A model generated the notes under the pieces. It worked only from the letters and a program-made list of their open reading frames with translations, was not told the DNA's origin and ran no database searches. Shown here piece after piece: positions 3,664 to 54,899 of a DNA stretch of 64,000 nucleotides. Position 1 is the stretch's first letter. The number at the start of each line of letters is the position of its first letter. Position numbers and translations under genes: made by a program. This stretch comes from Erysipelotrichaceae bacterium (GTDB taxonomy: Bacteria; Bacillota_I; Bacilli_A; Erysipelotrichales; Erysipelotrichaceae): the NCBI GenBank assembly GCA_017404205.1, contig JAFRCV010000008.1, forward strand, positions 186,001 through 250,000, read 5' to 3'.

Positions 3664-4910
3664 ATGTTTTCACGTTAGTTACTTATATAAAAAGATATTT
3701 AGAAAACGATGCACATTTAAATAAAGTTTTAGTAAGTGGCGAAATATCTAATTTTAAAAATCATAATTCAGGACATCTTTATTTCACGCTTAAAGATGAT
3801 AGGGCTGCGATTAATTGTGTAATGTTTTCTTCAAAAGCGAGATTAATTAATTTTGATCCTAAAAATGGTGATAAAGTAATTGTTTCAGGAAATATATCTG
3901 TTTTTGAATCAACTGGTCAAATGCAATTATATGTTAATAATATGAAGATTGATGGACTAGGTGATTTATACCAAAGATATGAGGAACTCAAGAACAAACT
4001 ATATGCTGAAGGATATTTTAATCAAGAGCATAAAAATGTTTTAAAAAATAAATATCCTGAAAAAGTAGCTGTTTTAGTTGGCGATAATTCAGCAGCAATG
4101 TCTGATATAAAAACTACATTTTATAGAAGATGGCCAATCTGCAAAGTCGATTATTATCCTGTGTTAGTTCAAGGAAAAGATGCATCTAAAAATATAATTG
4201 AGAATTTATTATTAGTTGATGAACTTGATTATGATGCCATTATTTTGGCAAGAGGAGGAGGTTCATTTGAAGATCTTTTCCAATTCAATGATGAATCATT
4301 AGTCAAAACAATTTATTCATTAAAAACATTTTTAATTAGTGGTGTCGGACATGAACAAGATTACACATTAGTTGATTTTGTATCTGATTTAAGAGCACCA
4401 ACGCCCACTGCTTCTGTTGAATTATTAACTCCTAATATTAATGATATATTATTAAAATTAGATGATTATAATTCAACAATGGAATATGTAATCAATAATC
4501 GTATTGCTTTTTTAGAAAACAAATATGATCATTTATCTAAAAATAAATATCTCTTAAATCCTAAATTAATAATAGAAAAAATGGAATTAAAAATTGATTC
4601 TTTATATAAATCACTAAACAAATATTCCTTAATATTAAAAAATAAAGAATTGATGATTGATAATTTTGTTGATTTAATAAAAAATAATTTGAAATCATTA
4701 TTTCTTAATAAAGAACATAAAATTATGTCTTTGGAAAAATTACTAAGCGCATATTCTTATAAAAACATTCTAAAAAGGGGATATAGTGTCATTTACAAAG
4801 ATAATAAGATCATAAAAGACTGTGATGATTTAAAAAACAACGACAATATTGATATTCAATTATATAATGGACGCTTAAAGGCTGAAATTAAGGAGGCTAA
4901 AAATGGCTAA
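3651..4910 (+). CDS. xseA: Exodeoxyribonuclease VII large subunit
   Basis: 419 residues, normal for XseA. An N-terminal OB-fold covers about residues 1-100 (SGEISNFKNHNSGHLYFTLK). The catalytic domain contains ARGGGSFEDLFQFNDE and GHEQDYTLVDFVSDLRAPTPTAS, both family hallmarks. A long helical region and a short C-terminal domain (GYSVIYKD) follow. With XseB it degrades single-stranded DNA in both directions in the cytoplasm. It overlaps nusB upstream and xseB downstream by 8 bases, so all three are translationally coupled. Confidence 0.95.
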   Translation: METINVFTLVTYIKRYLENDAHLNKVLVSGEISNFKNHNSGHLYFTLKDDRAAINCVMFSSKARLINFDPKNGDKVIVSGNISVFESTGQMQLYVNNMKIDGLGDLYQRYEELKNKLYAEGYFNQEHKNVLKNKYPEKVAVLVGDNSAAMSDIKTTFYRRWPICKVDYYPVLVQGKDASKNIIENLLLVDELDYDAIILARGGGSFEDLFQFNDESLVKTIYSLKTFLISGVGHEQDYTLVDFVSDLRAPTPTASVELLTPNINDILLKLDDYNSTMEYVINNRIAFLENKYDHLSKNKYLLNPKLIIEKMELKIDSLYKSLNKYSLILKNKELMIDNFVDLIKNNLKSLFLNKEHKIMSLEKLLSAYSYKNILKRGYSVIYKDNKIIKDCDDLKNNDNIDIQLYNGRLKAEIKEAKNG

Positions 4911-5097
4911 ACAAAGTTTTGAATCAAAGATTAAAAAATTAGAAGAAATAGTAAGCAAATTAGATGATGAAGATACTGATTTAGATAGTAGTATCGCTCT
5001 TTATGAAGAAGGTTTAAAGCTTTCTGATGAATTAAAAAAACAATTAGAAACTTATAAAGAAAGAATTGCCAATATTGAGGCTAATAATAATGAATAA
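4903..5097 (+). CDS. xseB: Exodeoxyribonuclease VII small subunit
   Basis: 64 residues, a small two-helix protein typical of XseB: FESKIKKLEEIVSKLDDEDTDLDSSIALYEEGLKLSDELKKQL. It packs around the XseA helices to form the active exonuclease. GGAGG at 4891-4895 gives a strong Shine-Dalgarno. It overlaps xseA by 8 bases and ispA by 8 bases. Confidence 0.93.
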   Translation: MAKQSFESKIKKLEEIVSKLDDEDTDLDSSIALYEEGLKLSDELKKQLETYKERIANIEANNNE

Positions 5098-5911
5098 TTT
5101 TGATGAATATCTATTAAAATCCTTTGATAAATTCAAAGACTCAATTATTAAAGATGCAATGATATATTCTATTAAAGGTGGTAAGCATTTTCGTCCAAAT
5201 ATACTCTTTGCGATAATTAAAGGCTTTGGTTTAAAGGAAGAGATCGCTTATGATGCAGCATTAGCGATTGAATATGTCCATACTTATTCTTTAATACATG
5301 ATGATTTGCCAGGAATGGATAATGATGAATACCGAAGAGGTAAGCTATCTTGTCATGCTAAATTTGGTGAAGATATCGCTATATTAACTGGCGATAGTTT
5401 ATTAACACATGCCTTTTCTTGTATAACAAATAGCAATTATAATAATGATTTAAAAGTTAATCTTATTAATATTTTAAGTAAATATGCTGGTCTAGATGGC
5501 ATGATATATGGACAATTATTAGATGTTACTTCAAATCACAATGTAAATAGCGATGAATTATTTTTAATTCAAGACAATAAAACTGGCGCATTATTCAAAT
5601 ATGTTTGTCTTGCAGCTATGTATTTATCTAATAGTAATAATTATGATTATTTTGAAAAATTAGGTTCTAAAATTGGCATCGTTTTTCAAAACCAAGATGA
5701 TTTATTTGATGTTATAAAAACTGAAGAACAAACAGGAAAATCAAATTCTGATTTAAGGAATGATAAAATTACTGCTTTATCATTTAAATCCGTTGATGAA
5801 TTAAAAAAGCATATCAGTTCTTTATTTGATGATTTAAGAACATATCTAAATGATGCACCATTTAATAATAAATATTTACTAGATATAATTAATATAATGG
5901 AAAAACGATGA
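5090..5911 (+). CDS. ispA: Polyprenyl synthase (farnesyl/geranylgeranyl diphosphate synthase)
   Basis: 273 residues from the ATG at 5090, which has GAGG at 5076-5079; an upstream in-frame start at 5066 lies within xseB and is less likely. Both aspartate-rich motifs are present: first HDDLPGMDND (Asp71, Asp72) and second QNQDDLFD (Asp203, Asp204). GGKHFRP is the isopentenyl diphosphate-binding block. It condenses C5 units made by the MEP pathway, whose first enzyme, Dxs, is encoded next. The stop is TGA, evidence for the standard code. Product chain length cannot be fixed from sequence. Confidence 0.9.
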   Translation: MNNFDEYLLKSFDKFKDSIIKDAMIYSIKGGKHFRPNILFAIIKGFGLKEEIAYDAALAIEYVHTYSLIHDDLPGMDNDEYRRGKLSCHAKFGEDIAILTGDSLLTHAFSCITNSNYNNDLKVNLINILSKYAGLDGMIYGQLLDVTSNHNVNSDELFLIQDNKTGALFKYVCLAAMYLSNSNNYDYFEKLGSKIGIVFQNQDDLFDVIKTEEQTGKSNSDLRNDKITALSFKSVDELKKHISSLFDDLRTYLNDAPFNNKYLLDIINIMEKR

Positions 5912-46641: not shown

Positions 46642-47283
46642 CTAATTATCAAGAATCTTGTTAATTTCATCAATCTCTTTAAGCAAGCTTTCTTGACAAG
46701 ATCTTTTATAGATTTGTATTAATTTATCTTTTTTATATTTAAGATAATTAATAAAGTTTTCATCTTTTCTTTTCAATAAAATTGGACCATATTTTAATTC
46801 TAAATCACTATACTCAGTTTTACTTTTAGGATTAATAACTATGGCTTCATAATAAAAACCATCAAAGATAACAACCTCATTAATAATACTATAATTCTGC
46901 GAATTAATAAAACTTCTTAATAAATCATTATCTTTATTAGATTGAACAATTATTTTGTCATATCTATTCAAATCTTTGCCTTCTAGAATATGTTTGATTG
47001 TATAAAAGCCCATTCCACATATTGTGATAATATCTACATCATCACTGATATTTTCTAAGCCATCACCAAGAACAGGAATAACTTTTCCGGTTAAACCTAA
47101 TTTGTTGATATTTTCAACGGCTTTTTTTAATGGTCCTTCTTTATTGTCACTTGCATAAGCTTTTGGGCTAATGCCATTTTGTACCAAAAAACAAGGTAGT
47201 AAGGCATGGTCTGAGCCCACGTCAAATACTACCTTATTTTTATCTACTAATTTACTAATCTCAGTTAATCTTTTAGATAACAT
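46642..47283 (-). CDS. trmK: tRNA (adenine(22)-N(1))-methyltransferase TrmK
   Basis: 213 residues. The SAM-binding motif VVFDVGSDHALLPCFLVQNG is near the N terminus, and DVDIITICGMGFYTIKHIL is the equivalent of the catalytic-loop region in the TrmK (DUF633) family. The C-terminal coiled coil is typical. The dnaG-rpoD-trmK order supports the call. It overlaps rpoD by one base (TAATG). Confidence 0.9.
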   Translation of the reverse strand: MLSKRLTEISKLVDKNKVVFDVGSDHALLPCFLVQNGISPKAYASDNKEGPLKKAVENINKLGLTGKVIPVLGDGLENISDDVDIITICGMGFYTIKHILEGKDLNRYDKIIVQSNKDNDLLRSFINSQNYSIINEVVIFDGFYYEAIVINPKSKTEYSDLELKYGPILLKRKDENFINYLKYKKDKLIQIYKRSCQESLLKEIDEINKILDN

Positions 47284-49037
47284 TAGCGTACATCATCAAT
47301 AAATTCTTTAAGTCTCTTACATTTTGTAGGATTTTTAAGCTTTCTTAAGGCTTTAGCTTCAATCTGTCTGATTCTTTCTCTTGTAACATCGAACTCTTTA
47401 CCAACTTCTTCCAAAGTTCTAGTTCTACCATCCTCAAGTCCAAAACGAAGTCTTAAAACTTTTTCTTCTCTTTCGGTTAAAGTTTTTAATACAGAGTTGA
47501 TTTCGTCTTTTAATAAACCAATATTGGCATATTTATCTGGTGACATAGCATCCTTGTCTTCAATAAAATCACCTAAATGAGAATCATCTTCTTCACCTAT
47601 TGGTGTCTCTAAAGATACAGGATCCATACTTATCTTTTGAATATCACGAACTTTTTCTGCCGTAATTCCGCCACCCATTCTTTCAGCTATCTCTTCAGCA
47701 GTTGCTTCACGGCCTAATTCTTGAACTAATTGCCTTTGAATTCGTGTCATCTTATTGATTGTTTCAACCATATGAACAGGGATTCTTATTGTTCTTGCTT
47801 GGTCAGCGATAGCTCTAGTGATGGCTTGTCTAATCCACCAAGTAGCATATGTAGAAAATTTGAAACCTTTATGATAGTCAAATTTATCAACAGCTTTAAT
47901 TAATCCCATATTTCCTTCTTGAATAAGATCTAATAAAAGCATGCCTCTTCCTGTATATTTCTTAGCGATGGCAACAACAAGCCTAAGATTTGAACTAATT
48001 AATTCATTTTTAGCTTCATCATAACCTTCGCCACCTTTTTCAATGATTTTGGCTAGTCTTACTTCTTCATCTGCTTTTAGTAGAGGAACTTTACCAATTT
48101 CTTTTAAATACATTTTTACCGGGTCAGTTACTTTTGGATAATTAGCTGCATCATCATACGATATTACAATATTCCTTTCAGGATTATCTTCATCATCTAA
48201 ATCATCAGTTAAATAATCATCATCAAGAACATTCTCATTTTCAGTTTCATCAATTAAATCAATATTCTTATCTGCTGCCCATTCATAGAATTCTTCTACA
48301 TCATCATCGTTCATATCAAAACGATCTAATGCTTGAATTAAATCTTTTTGATTGATATCTATTCTTTTTTTATTTAAAAAGATTAAATGTTCTTTTAATT
48401 CTTCAATTGTTGAGAATTTACGAGTTCCTAAATCATCAAGTTGTTTGTTTATTACTTTAGGTTCATATTTAGTAGGACGAGAAATAGATATTTGTTTCTT
48501 TGGTTTTTTTATTTTTTCTTCCTTTACTTCAACCTTCTTATTGTTTTTCTTTTTAACATCTTCATCTTTTATTTTTGAAACTTTTTTTAATTCAGGTTTT
48601 TTAGTTTCAACTTTTTTTGAAGATGCCTTCTTAGGAAGAACCTTTTTATTTTCGTTTTTGTTTAAAACCTTTTTTGCCTTGATATTATTCTTTTTATTTA
48701 CTTCTTTTTTGGATGCTTTCTTAGTTTCAACTTTTGTTTCTTTTTTTGCCTTTTTTGCTACTTCATTTTTAGCTTTAGTATTCTTTTTATCTAATGGCTT
48801 TTTTGAGGCTATATTTTTATTTTTCTTAGAAGCTTCCTTTTTAACTGTCGTTTTTTTAGATGCTTCCTTTTTGGCAGTAGCAGCTTTTTTAGAAAGCGTA
48901 GCCTTCTTAACTGGAGCTTTTTTAGTAGTTGTCTTTTTAGTTGCAGCTACTTTTTTTGAACTTGCAGGCTTTTTAGTAGCAGGCTTTTTTATATCTTTCT
49001 TTGATTTCTTGGTTTCTTTTTTAGTAATTTTTGGCAT
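47283..49037 (-). CDS. rpoD: Primary sigma factor RpoD/SigA with lysine-rich N-terminal extension
   Basis: 584 residues; Bacillus SigA has about 370. Residues 1-180 form a tail of KKA/KKT/SKK-type repeats with 73 lysines and almost no arginine. An acidic region (about 240-295, region 1.1-like) follows. From about 303 the sigma core is normal: region 1.2 ([11 protein letters not shown]), region 2 ([24 protein letters not shown] split across 2.3-2.4 and 3.0) and region 4.2 ([27 protein letters not shown]). It directs RNA polymerase to housekeeping promoters. The tail looks histone H1-like and may bind DNA or RNA; that is inference. GGGAGG precedes the ATG. Confidence 0.95.
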
Positions 49038-52210: not shown

Positions 52211-52936
52211 TTAATTGCAGGTAACAGGAATTGGATCAGCTATATTCGCTATTTCTTTAAAATCAAGATAATTAATTGTATTAATTGAATAGTTATCATT
52301 TAAATCTTTATAAATAGAAATAATAACCATTTGTTCATTTGCGTTAGTTAAAACGTTTCCTTCATAAGCTAAGTAACAATAATTTGTTCCCGAAACCATT
52401 TGGCTTGCCAATAAAGCAATTGGCTTATAATAAACATCAAAATTATCTTCAACAACTTTTGGATTAAAGATATCAATATCATCAACTTTTAAAACATTTT
52501 CGTCATTAAAATATGCATACCAGCCACCCATTAACTGCTCACTGTTACTAGGCTCATTATTAACTAAATATTTTTCTAAATTAAATGGCATTATTTTAGT
52601 TATGCTTAAATTGTCATCTAAATCAGCATAGATAATTAAAATTTCATAATCGTATGCATTTTTTACTAAAAACATATAATTAATGCCTGCCACTACTTGT
52701 GTAGCTAGTAATGCAACTGGTTTATAATCATCATATCCATTTAAATCACTTGATGTAATAAAAGAAATAAGCTCTTCTTTATCAATTATTAAATCATTAA
52801 AATTATCATTGAGATTCCAAGAACCTAGAACAATATTGTTTTCTTTATTATCTTTTATATTATCTTGAACTTCTTTCTTATTTGCGCATGAGCATAGAAT
52901 TAAAAGAATAAACAGTATTATAAAAATCTTCTTCAT
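52211..52936 (-). CDS. Lipoprotein with two cystatin-like repeats
   Basis: 241 residues from the ATG at 52936; longer upstream readings overlap folA. A lipoprotein signal (MKKIFIILFILLILCSC) has the lipobox ending at Cys15 or Cys17. The mature part contains two repeats (about 36-120 and 137-225). Each has the cystatin motif QxVxG: ATQVVAGINY at 78-87 and ASQMVSGTNY at 177-186, each followed by a beta-strand pair ending in a DLxDNxSIxxI block. Cystatin family loops with this motif insert into papain-like proteases. Protease inhibition is inference. It is downstream of thyA-folA in the same transcript. Confidence 0.75.
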   Translation of the reverse strand: MKKIFIILFILLILCSCANKKEVQDNIKDNKENNIVLGSWNLNDNFNDLIIDKEELISFITSSDLNGYDDYKPVALLATQVVAGINYMFLVKNAYDYEILIIYADLDDNLSITKIMPFNLEKYLVNNEPSNSEQLMGGWYAYFNDENVLKVDDIDIFNPKVVEDNFDVYYKPIALLASQMVSGTNYCYLAYEGNVLTNANEQMVIISIYKDLNDNYSINTINYLDFKEIANIADPIPVTCN

Positions 52937-52937
52937 T

Positions 52938-53414
52938 TTAGTTTTCTCTTTTTTGATATTCAATTAAAGTAAAACCATCATAATTGGTAGTTTTTAAAAT
53001 ATCATAATCATTGACATCATAGTATGGGAAAAAGGCATCAGCTTCATGCTTTCCATCTACAAGTGATATATAAAGTTTCTTACAATATGGCAAAGCGATT
53101 TTATAAATACCCATACCACCGCATACCATTATTTCTTCATCACTATCTTTGTTATCCTCAAGAAACTTATACAAATCAGTAATATAAGTAACGTTTTCTG
53201 TATTTTCGCCTTCTTCACCTTTAAAACAAGCTACAACAGTATGTCTATCAGGCAATGGTTTGCCTATTCCATCAAAGGTAACTTTTCCCATCAGTATTCT
53301 TTTACCAACAGTTTTTTCTTTGAATTGTTTAAAATCTTCTTTTAAATGCCAAGGAATTTGACCTTTATTACCAATAGCAAAGTCTTTATCATGAGCTACA
53401 ATAAGCGAAAACAT
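52938..53414 (-). CDS. folA: Dihydrofolate reductase
   Basis: 158 residues. The start [37 protein letters not shown] contains the substrate-binding and Met20-loop region, and MVCGGMGIYKIALPYCKKLYISLVD is the NADPH-binding region. It regenerates tetrahydrofolate after ThyA. It overlaps thyA by 3 bases, a classic thyA-folA pair. Confidence 0.96.
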   Translation of the reverse strand: MFSLIVAHDKDFAIGNKGQIPWHLKEDFKQFKEKTVGKRILMGKVTFDGIGKPLPDRHTVVACFKGEEGENTENVTYITDLYKFLEDNKDSDEEIMVCGGMGIYKIALPYCKKLYISLVDGKHEADAFFPYYDVNDYDILKTTNYDGFTLIEYQKREN

Positions 53415-54286
53415 TAAACAGAAACCTCCCCTTTAATTGCAGGCCATGGATCATAGTCCTCTATTTTGATATCTTCATATTTAAAATCAAATATGTTCTT
53501 AACATCTTTATTTAATACAAGTCTAGGCAATTTACGTGGTGTTCTTTCAAGTTGTGTCTTAATTTGATCAACATGATTCAAATAAATATGGGCATCACCA
53601 AATGTATGTACAAATTCATATGGTTCCATATCACATACTTGAGCAACCATCGCTAACAACAATGAATATGAAGCGATATTAAATGGAACGCCCAAGAATA
53701 TATCACCACTTCTTTGATATAGTTGACAAGATAATTTCTTACCATCAGCACTAACATAAAATTGGAATAAAGAATGACATGGAGGTAAAGCCATGTCCTT
53801 TATTTCAGCTGGATTAAATGCCACAACCAAATGTCTTCTTGAGAAAGGATTATGTTTTAAATTGTAGATTAAATCACTAATTTGATCTACACCGCCAAAG
53901 TTGCGCCATTGTTTACCATATACAGGACCTAAATTACCATATTTCTTAGCAAATTTTTCATCATTTCTAATTTTTTCAATGAATTCTTCTAAGCTTTCGC
54001 CTTGATATTCAGGTCTTTTTATATAATCAGCATATGGCCATTCATTCCAAATGCCAACTTTCTTATCAACAAGAGGCTTGATGTTTGTATCACCACTTAA
54101 AAACCATAACAATTCTTCAAAAATACCACGATAGAAAACTTTTTTTGTAGTTAATAAAGGGAAGCCTTCTTGTAAATTAAAACGCATTTGATAGCCAAAA
54201 ACAGAAATAGTACCAGTTCCGGTTCTATCTTCTCTTTTTTCGCCATTTTCTAAAACATGTTTACATAAATCTAGATATTGTTTCAT
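53414..54286 (-). CDS. thyA: Thymidylate synthase
   Basis: 290 residues from the ATG at 54286 ([18 protein letters not shown]), chosen for the preceding AGAGGTAGTAAC and the family's usual start; the longer frame runs over the promoter. The catalytic Cys is in [29 protein letters not shown] and [11 protein letters not shown] are conserved. It methylates dUMP to dTMP using methylene-tetrahydrofolate. dUMP can come from the ComEB-type deaminase at 2.2 kb. It is first in thyA-folA-cystatin-like lipoprotein. Confidence 0.97.
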
Positions 54287-54307
54287 TGTTACTACCTCTT
54301 TTTTATG

Positions 54308-54313
54308 ATTATA
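54308..54313 (-). promoter_or_regulatory. -10 element of thyA
   Basis: TATAAT on -; the ATG is 21 bases further on with AGAGG between, so this is a conventional leadered start. Confidence 0.55.
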
Positions 54314-54337
54314 CAACAAAAACACAAGACCATATAA

Positions 54338-54679
54338 TTATTGCTTTTCAAAATATCTCTTACCAGAATCTGGCCTAAAATATGTTCTTATATAACCATC
54401 AAATGATACAACAACAAAATCATTTGTTGCTTCCAAATAATAGATATCATCATTATCTTCTTTTTCTTTTTTATGTAGCGCTTCCTTATTGTTGACGATA
54501 TCGCAAGCAGCTTTTTCATATTCTTCTTTAGAGTTAAAGCCCATCTCTATCCCGTGTTTTTCAAAATGTTGAACTAAAAGTTCTTCATTGCGAAAATGGT
54601 AATTAATATATTCTTCTCTTTTTGTACAAGAGCTAAACAATAATAAAAGAATAATAGGAAGTATTAAGCGTTTAAACAT
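54338..54679 (-). CDS. Small lipoprotein of unknown function
   Basis: 113 residues from the ATG at 54679. A lipoprotein signal MFKRLILPIILLLLFSSC has the lipobox FSSC. The mature part is charged, with EYEKAACDIVNNKEALHKKE and a C-terminal FVVVSFDGYIRTYFRPDSGKRYFE. I do not recognise a family. GAGG lies 9 bases before the chosen ATG; an ATG 15 bases earlier is possible. It overlaps the CPCC gene by 8 bases, so they are probably cotranslated. Confidence 0.7.
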   Translation of the reverse strand: MFKRLILPIILLLLFSSCTKREEYINYHFRNEELLVQHFEKHGIEMGFNSKEEYEKAACDIVNNKEALHKKEKEDNDDIYYLEATNDFVVVSFDGYIRTYFRPDSGKRYFEKQ

Positions 54680-54899
54680 CTTTTTTATCCTCATATTCCT
54701 TTATAGCTTCATTTAAGCTTAATGAATTAGGACCACCTTTATAGTCAGGATCATCTGATTGAACCCTGTTGTCTTCCCATCCACAAATTGGACATATTTC
54801 ATAAGAATTTGTATTAGAAAAATAATGTTTTTTGCAAACAGGACATAAATGTGATTTATTTTTTTTAAATAATTTCTTTATAAAACTAATGAATTTCAT
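54672..54899 (-). CDS. CPCC family cysteine-rich protein
   Basis: 75 residues. After a basic N terminus, CPVCKKHYF and YEICPICGWEDNRVQSDDPDYKGGPNSLSLNEAI match the Cys_rich_CPCC family: two CPxC knuckles that probably bind zinc, then the GWEDxxVQ...DPDYxGG block. The function is unknown; such genes are common next to toxin-immunity or polymorphic cassettes, but no toxin is seen here. GGAGG precedes the ATG. Confidence 0.85.
   Translation of the reverse strand: MKFISFIKKLFKKNKSHLCPVCKKHYFSNTNSYEICPICGWEDNRVQSDDPDYKGGPNSLSLNEAIKEYEDKKDV

Follow-up and report, generated by a model that had tools for sequence, protein, structure and literature searches.

The cystatin superfamily (MEROPS I25), known from animals and plants as inhibitors of papain-type proteases, comprises the stefins, the type-2 cystatins and the phytocystatins. 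Its members block papain with a wedge that enters the cleft and consists of the N-terminal segment, a QxVxG hairpin and a second hairpin (PMC2784779). In bacteria, stefins and cystatins have been recorded from few lineages, Clostridia and Eggerthella among them and none in the classes Bacilli or Mollicutes, and this very limited distribution came with the suggestion that bacterial cystatins serve as a defence against host proteases (Kordis and Turk 2009, PMC2784779). Chagasins (I42) are likewise papain-family inhibitors of bacteria, but are unrelated to cystatins and possess an Ig-like fold. A functional analogy is provided by the siropins, serpins of gut commensals that act on human proteases: they too are made by gut bacteria against proteases of the host, but differ in their serpin fold and in having serine proteases as targets (PMC5127057).

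The stretch of DNA analysed here, 64,000 nucleotides of an Erysipelotrichaceae genome (the window), contains a gene whose product we read as a lipid-anchored double cystatin, each domain of which would block papain-like (C1) proteases of exogenous origin; judging from sequence and structural models, we give this reading a probability of roughly 65%. The locus has the following features (AF2, AlphaFold2):

52211..52936, minus strand: lipoprotein ORF of 241 aa with two cystatin-like domains (ORF reading, conservation, AF2)
52886..52936, minus strand: signal peptide and probable lipidated Cys17, MKKIFIILFILLILCSC (sequence; lipoboxes of homologues)
52535..52834, minus strand: cystatin-like domain 1, residues 35-134 (domain profile, AF2, fold comparison)
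52817..52825, minus strand: N-terminal GSW of domain 1, G38-W40, at the position of the cystatin N-terminal glycine (conservation, hhalign)
52685..52699, minus strand: first hairpin loop of domain 1, QVVAG, Q80-G84 (conservation, AF2)
52610..52624, minus strand: second hairpin of domain 1, DLDDN, residues 105-109, between strands 97-104 and 110-118 (AF2)
52238..52537, minus strand: cystatin-like domain 2, residues 134-233 (domain profile, AF2, fold comparison)
52520..52528, minus strand: N-terminal GGW of domain 2, G137-W139 (conservation)
52388..52402, minus strand: first hairpin loop of domain 2, QMVSG, Q179-G183 (AF2)
52292..52306, minus strand: second hairpin of domain 2, DLNDN, residues 211-215 (AF2)
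52938..53414, minus strand: folA (dihydrofolate reductase), directly upstream, context only
53414-54325: thyA, upstream of folA

The ORF runs on the minus strand from an ATG at 52936 to a stop codon at 52211-52213. Residues 14-17 form the lipobox LCSC (by inspection), with an unusual C at -2; homologues carry canonical lipoboxes, e.g. LFGC and LVGC. Lipoprotein signal and homologue lipoboxes together support the surface anchoring proposed in a first-pass annotation of the locus, and the protein is probably lipid-anchored at Cys17, beyond which the mature sequence contains only two cysteines. Choline-binding or Big_2 domains attached in some homologues fit a location at the cell surface.

The same annotation had recognised two repeats with TQVVAGINY (residues 79-87) and SQMVSGTNY (residues 178-186). 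These are confirmed: each repeat is approximately 95 residues long, the two are about 30% identical, and a single domain profile matches the ORF along both. Both domains combine an N-terminal G(G/S)W with a QxVxG loop and a second hairpin DLxxN. In 41 homologous domains gathered without use of the QxVxG motif, QxxxGxN never varies at Q, G or N, and V reaches 95%, which places the conservation of the motif beyond chance. The N-terminal G (93%) and W (95%) are similarly retained in this set, and YxDLxG of the second hairpin comes next among its top-conserved positions. The N-terminal glycine is present as G38 and G137-G138 and occurs in 93-97% of domains. Loci from a profile scan of genome contigs were selected on the motif and count toward its conservation only via partner domains unselected by the search pattern, 43 of 44 of which keep Q...G; overall, QxVxG is conserved across sets of 41 and 118 domains. 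Conservation thus maps largely to the three cystatin contact elements, i.e. N-terminal G/W, QxVxG and second hairpin.

A sequence relation to known cystatins is detectable by profile methods. Of the 19 PDB sequences matched by the 41-domain profile (best E 0.0018), 18 are cystatins. Alignment with five cystatins in hhalign (reference sequences from general knowledge) yields a probability of 92.4% (E 5e-7) and pairs GG with GG and QVVAG with QVVAG; a reversed-alignment control drops to 0.1%. Single-sequence searches with the window protein recover no Pfam family above cut-off and no cystatin match, and hits in Pfam and NCBIfam are limited to the signal peptide or to chance. The best score of any relative against Pfam Cystatin (PF00031) is 19.0 bits, short of the gathering cut-off of 22.2 bits.

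AlphaFold2 on 25 two-domain sequences predicts two b-a-b-b-b-b domains, the helix of domain 2 only weakly, and the same topology is obtained for domain 2 with 118 sequences; mean pLDDT is 79-80, i.e. of moderate confidence. In both domains QxVxG occupies the turn that links strand 2 (72-82 and 168-181) to strand 3 (84-92 and 183-194) and does not lie in buried strands. Foldseek gives no match with E below 1e-3; its list and that of VIA are headed by cystatins. Among solved structures, the nearest folds are those of stefins, phytocystatins and the inhibitor chain of the tarocystatin-papain complex, with VIA-align Z scores of up to 8.9 (CsStefin-1 8.9, potato multicystatin 8.2, papain-bound tarocystatin 8.2; domain 1 model against CsStefin-1 7.5). 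A middling Z is weak by itself, yet sequence and fold evidence agree on cystatins, and both domains are predicted to adopt the cystatin fold, a five-stranded sheet with one helix; the fold prediction, set beforehand as a test, came out cystatin-like.

Monellin, latexin, fetuin and SQAPI are cystatin-fold proteins, not cysteine-protease inhibitors, and several of them appear in the fold lists; the window domains could likewise be a reused cystatin fold, inhibiting another protease class (as in latexin, fetuin-B or SQAPI) or serving as a binding or adhesion module unconnected to proteases. Latexin and fetuin-B, which possess two cystatin-fold domains in tandem like the window protein, head or enter the two-domain Foldseek list, and SQAPI gives sub-threshold Pfam matches in family members. 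The targets of latexin and fetuin-B are metallopeptidases according to PDB titles (carboxypeptidase A4; meprin, astacin), not papain-like enzymes. To our knowledge, strict conservation of the QxVxG loop is not expected in re-purposed cystatin-fold proteins, whereas in this family the loop is the most conserved element, and we regard such reuse as rather unlikely.

Under the double-cystatin reading, each domain would be a reversible inhibitor plugging the substrate cleft of papain-like (C1) cysteine proteases. The coincidence of the three most conserved regions with the three wedge elements of cystatins suggests how: N-terminal glycine segment, QxVxG hairpin and second hairpin may form a wedge that enters the active-site cleft in the way stefin B does with papain. 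The lipid-anchored pair of wedges would then block papain-like proteases close to the cell surface and protect it. Such proteases could be of host or dietary origin, or come from protists or competing bacteria.

An endogenous target is the next alternative, with the protein inhibiting the organism's own cysteine peptidases as a guard against self-damage. Some members of the genus do encode large C1A peptidases, but the window's genome yields no C1 peptidase in a search that detects C1 peptidases in 22 of the 36 genomes of the genus, nor any match to clostripain (C11) or to C10, the latter in a search without a responding positive control. C1A and the domain occur together in 6 genomes, C1A only in 4, the domain only in 21 (including one, G010, with a signal-peptide match alone) and neither in 5 (p = 0.23), and the 25 families listed for genes beside homologues on the same strand include no peptidase. 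With no C1 peptidase in the genome and co-occurrence not above expectation, an exogenous target is likelier, and self-protection appears improbable. Chagasin (I42) has no match in the window's genome, is present in 2 of the 36 genomes of the genus and is absent from the same 25 neighbour families. That QxVxG arose by coincidence in an unrelated fold or family, as the failure of the window protein to reach the cut-off of any Pfam family might suggest, is largely refuted and highly implausible, because profile, profile-profile and predicted-fold results all point to cystatins and the motif is kept across 41 and 118 domains.

The ORF begins one base past the stop of folA (which ends at 52938), a junction that makes co-transcription with thyA-folA, as previously proposed, plausible; glyS, dnaG and rpoD follow. 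As a functional clue, this linkage does not hold. Among 30 folA loci read, the domain lies nearby only in the window's genome and in G001, the sole other genome of the genus with this gene order, and is missing at the others; G014 possesses thyA-folA-glyS without it. The cystatin gene is thus most simply a local, lineage-specific insertion in two species, without evident functional meaning. The genes next to homologues on the same strand are of mixed kinds (sigma factors, VWA, metabolic genes) and were also rejected as a clue. Between the window's genome and G001, wedge positions are identical in 30 of 41 cases and the remainder in 86 of 154 (p = 0.05, borderline). Identity is 74-92% for the neighbouring proteins, dnaG through thyA, and the lower identity of the cystatin protein indicates that it evolves faster as a whole than they do. 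Directly upstream of thyA (54338-54694) lies a second small lipoprotein of 118 aa and no known family, conserved in G001 with 76% identity over 80%. RpoD (47283-49037) possesses a lysine/alanine-rich, low-complexity N-terminal extension of approximately 200 residues.

A whole-protein search of 61 related genomes gives matches in 27, all from the window's own genus (G010 via the signal peptide only), and in a class-wide draw of 395 genomes only 3 match, including one weak match. Scanning genome contigs with the single sequence finds no relative, but the profile scan detects at least 415 related stretches. Those listed derive mostly from gut or rumen Lachnospiraceae, Oscillospiraceae, Erysipelotrichaceae and other Bacillota, with some Eggerthellaceae/Atopobiaceae (Coriobacteriia) and single cultured strains, e.g. 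Lactobacillus kalixensis; Lachnoanaerobaculum is another cultured carrier. Most relatives possess two domains, some one, three or four, and among the parts joined to the domains are a DUF4430-like domain, choline-binding repeats and Big_2. Clostridia, Erysipelotrichia and Coriobacteriia are intermixed in the tree (which includes MAG bins and paralogues), a pattern compatible with horizontal transfer, short of proof.

Several relatives deviate in architecture. In L075 (Christensenella bin, 4840-5800), the stretch after a cystatin-like domain has a masked gap flanked by the chagasin motifs TTGYAW and GVGG, in this order; the gap blocks reading one continuous frame, so the link is only suggestive and a double-type papain inhibitor is possible. 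L020 (1432-3246) encodes 605 residues with one cystatin-like domain, a Listeria-Bacteroides repeat and a Hint-like domain. In L032 (G087:C2:231664-232250), two single domains form separate adjacent ORFs, with TGA and TAG stops in a frame read across both, possibly a decayed or split tandem. L100 (4271-6585) comprises two adjacent genes of two domains apiece; the one scanned has choline-binding repeats, which suggests wall-bound forms of the family.

With the I25 cystatins the window protein shares the predicted fold, QxVxG at the hairpin of strands 2-3, the N-terminal glycine and the second hairpin, but it is apparently lipid-anchored and tandem, has DLxG instead of PW in the second hairpin and a conserved GGW, and stays below the PF00031 cut-off. 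Like stefins (type 1) it has no disulfide pattern; unlike these single intracellular domains without signal peptide, it possesses a lipoprotein signal and two domains. PW and the two disulfides of the secreted type-2 cystatins are absent, the hairpin reading DLDDN or DLNDN. Since the superfamily features tested are present, those of stefins and type-2 cystatins are not, and Pfam is blind to the protein, it is best called a divergent, putatively lipid-anchored, tandem bacterial cystatin variant missed by Pfam. The bacterial genes of Kordis and Turk also carry QxVxG, and the Clostridia and Eggerthella groups also hold relatives of the window protein, whereas the family described here has many members among gut Bacillota, a tandem build and a probable lipid anchor; the clostridial stefins reported in 2009 may be part of it. 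In the open-access literature searched, no experimental work on a gut lipoprotein of this kind turned up.

More tentatively, these relatives could constitute a large and so far unrecognised family of tandem cystatins with a lipid anchor, horizontally spread and apart from stefins and type-2 cystatins, that blunts papain-like proteases of host, rumen protists or rivals at the surface of gut anaerobes. The family exposes a coverage gap in Pfam and NCBIfam. Bacterial cystatins had been described as rare. If the domains inhibit, cysteine-protease inhibitors anchored at the surface would be a common feature of gut Bacillota; commensals would have in this family a defined counterpart to siropins of the serpin type, and a small, expressible domain would allow a direct test of which proteases are resisted.
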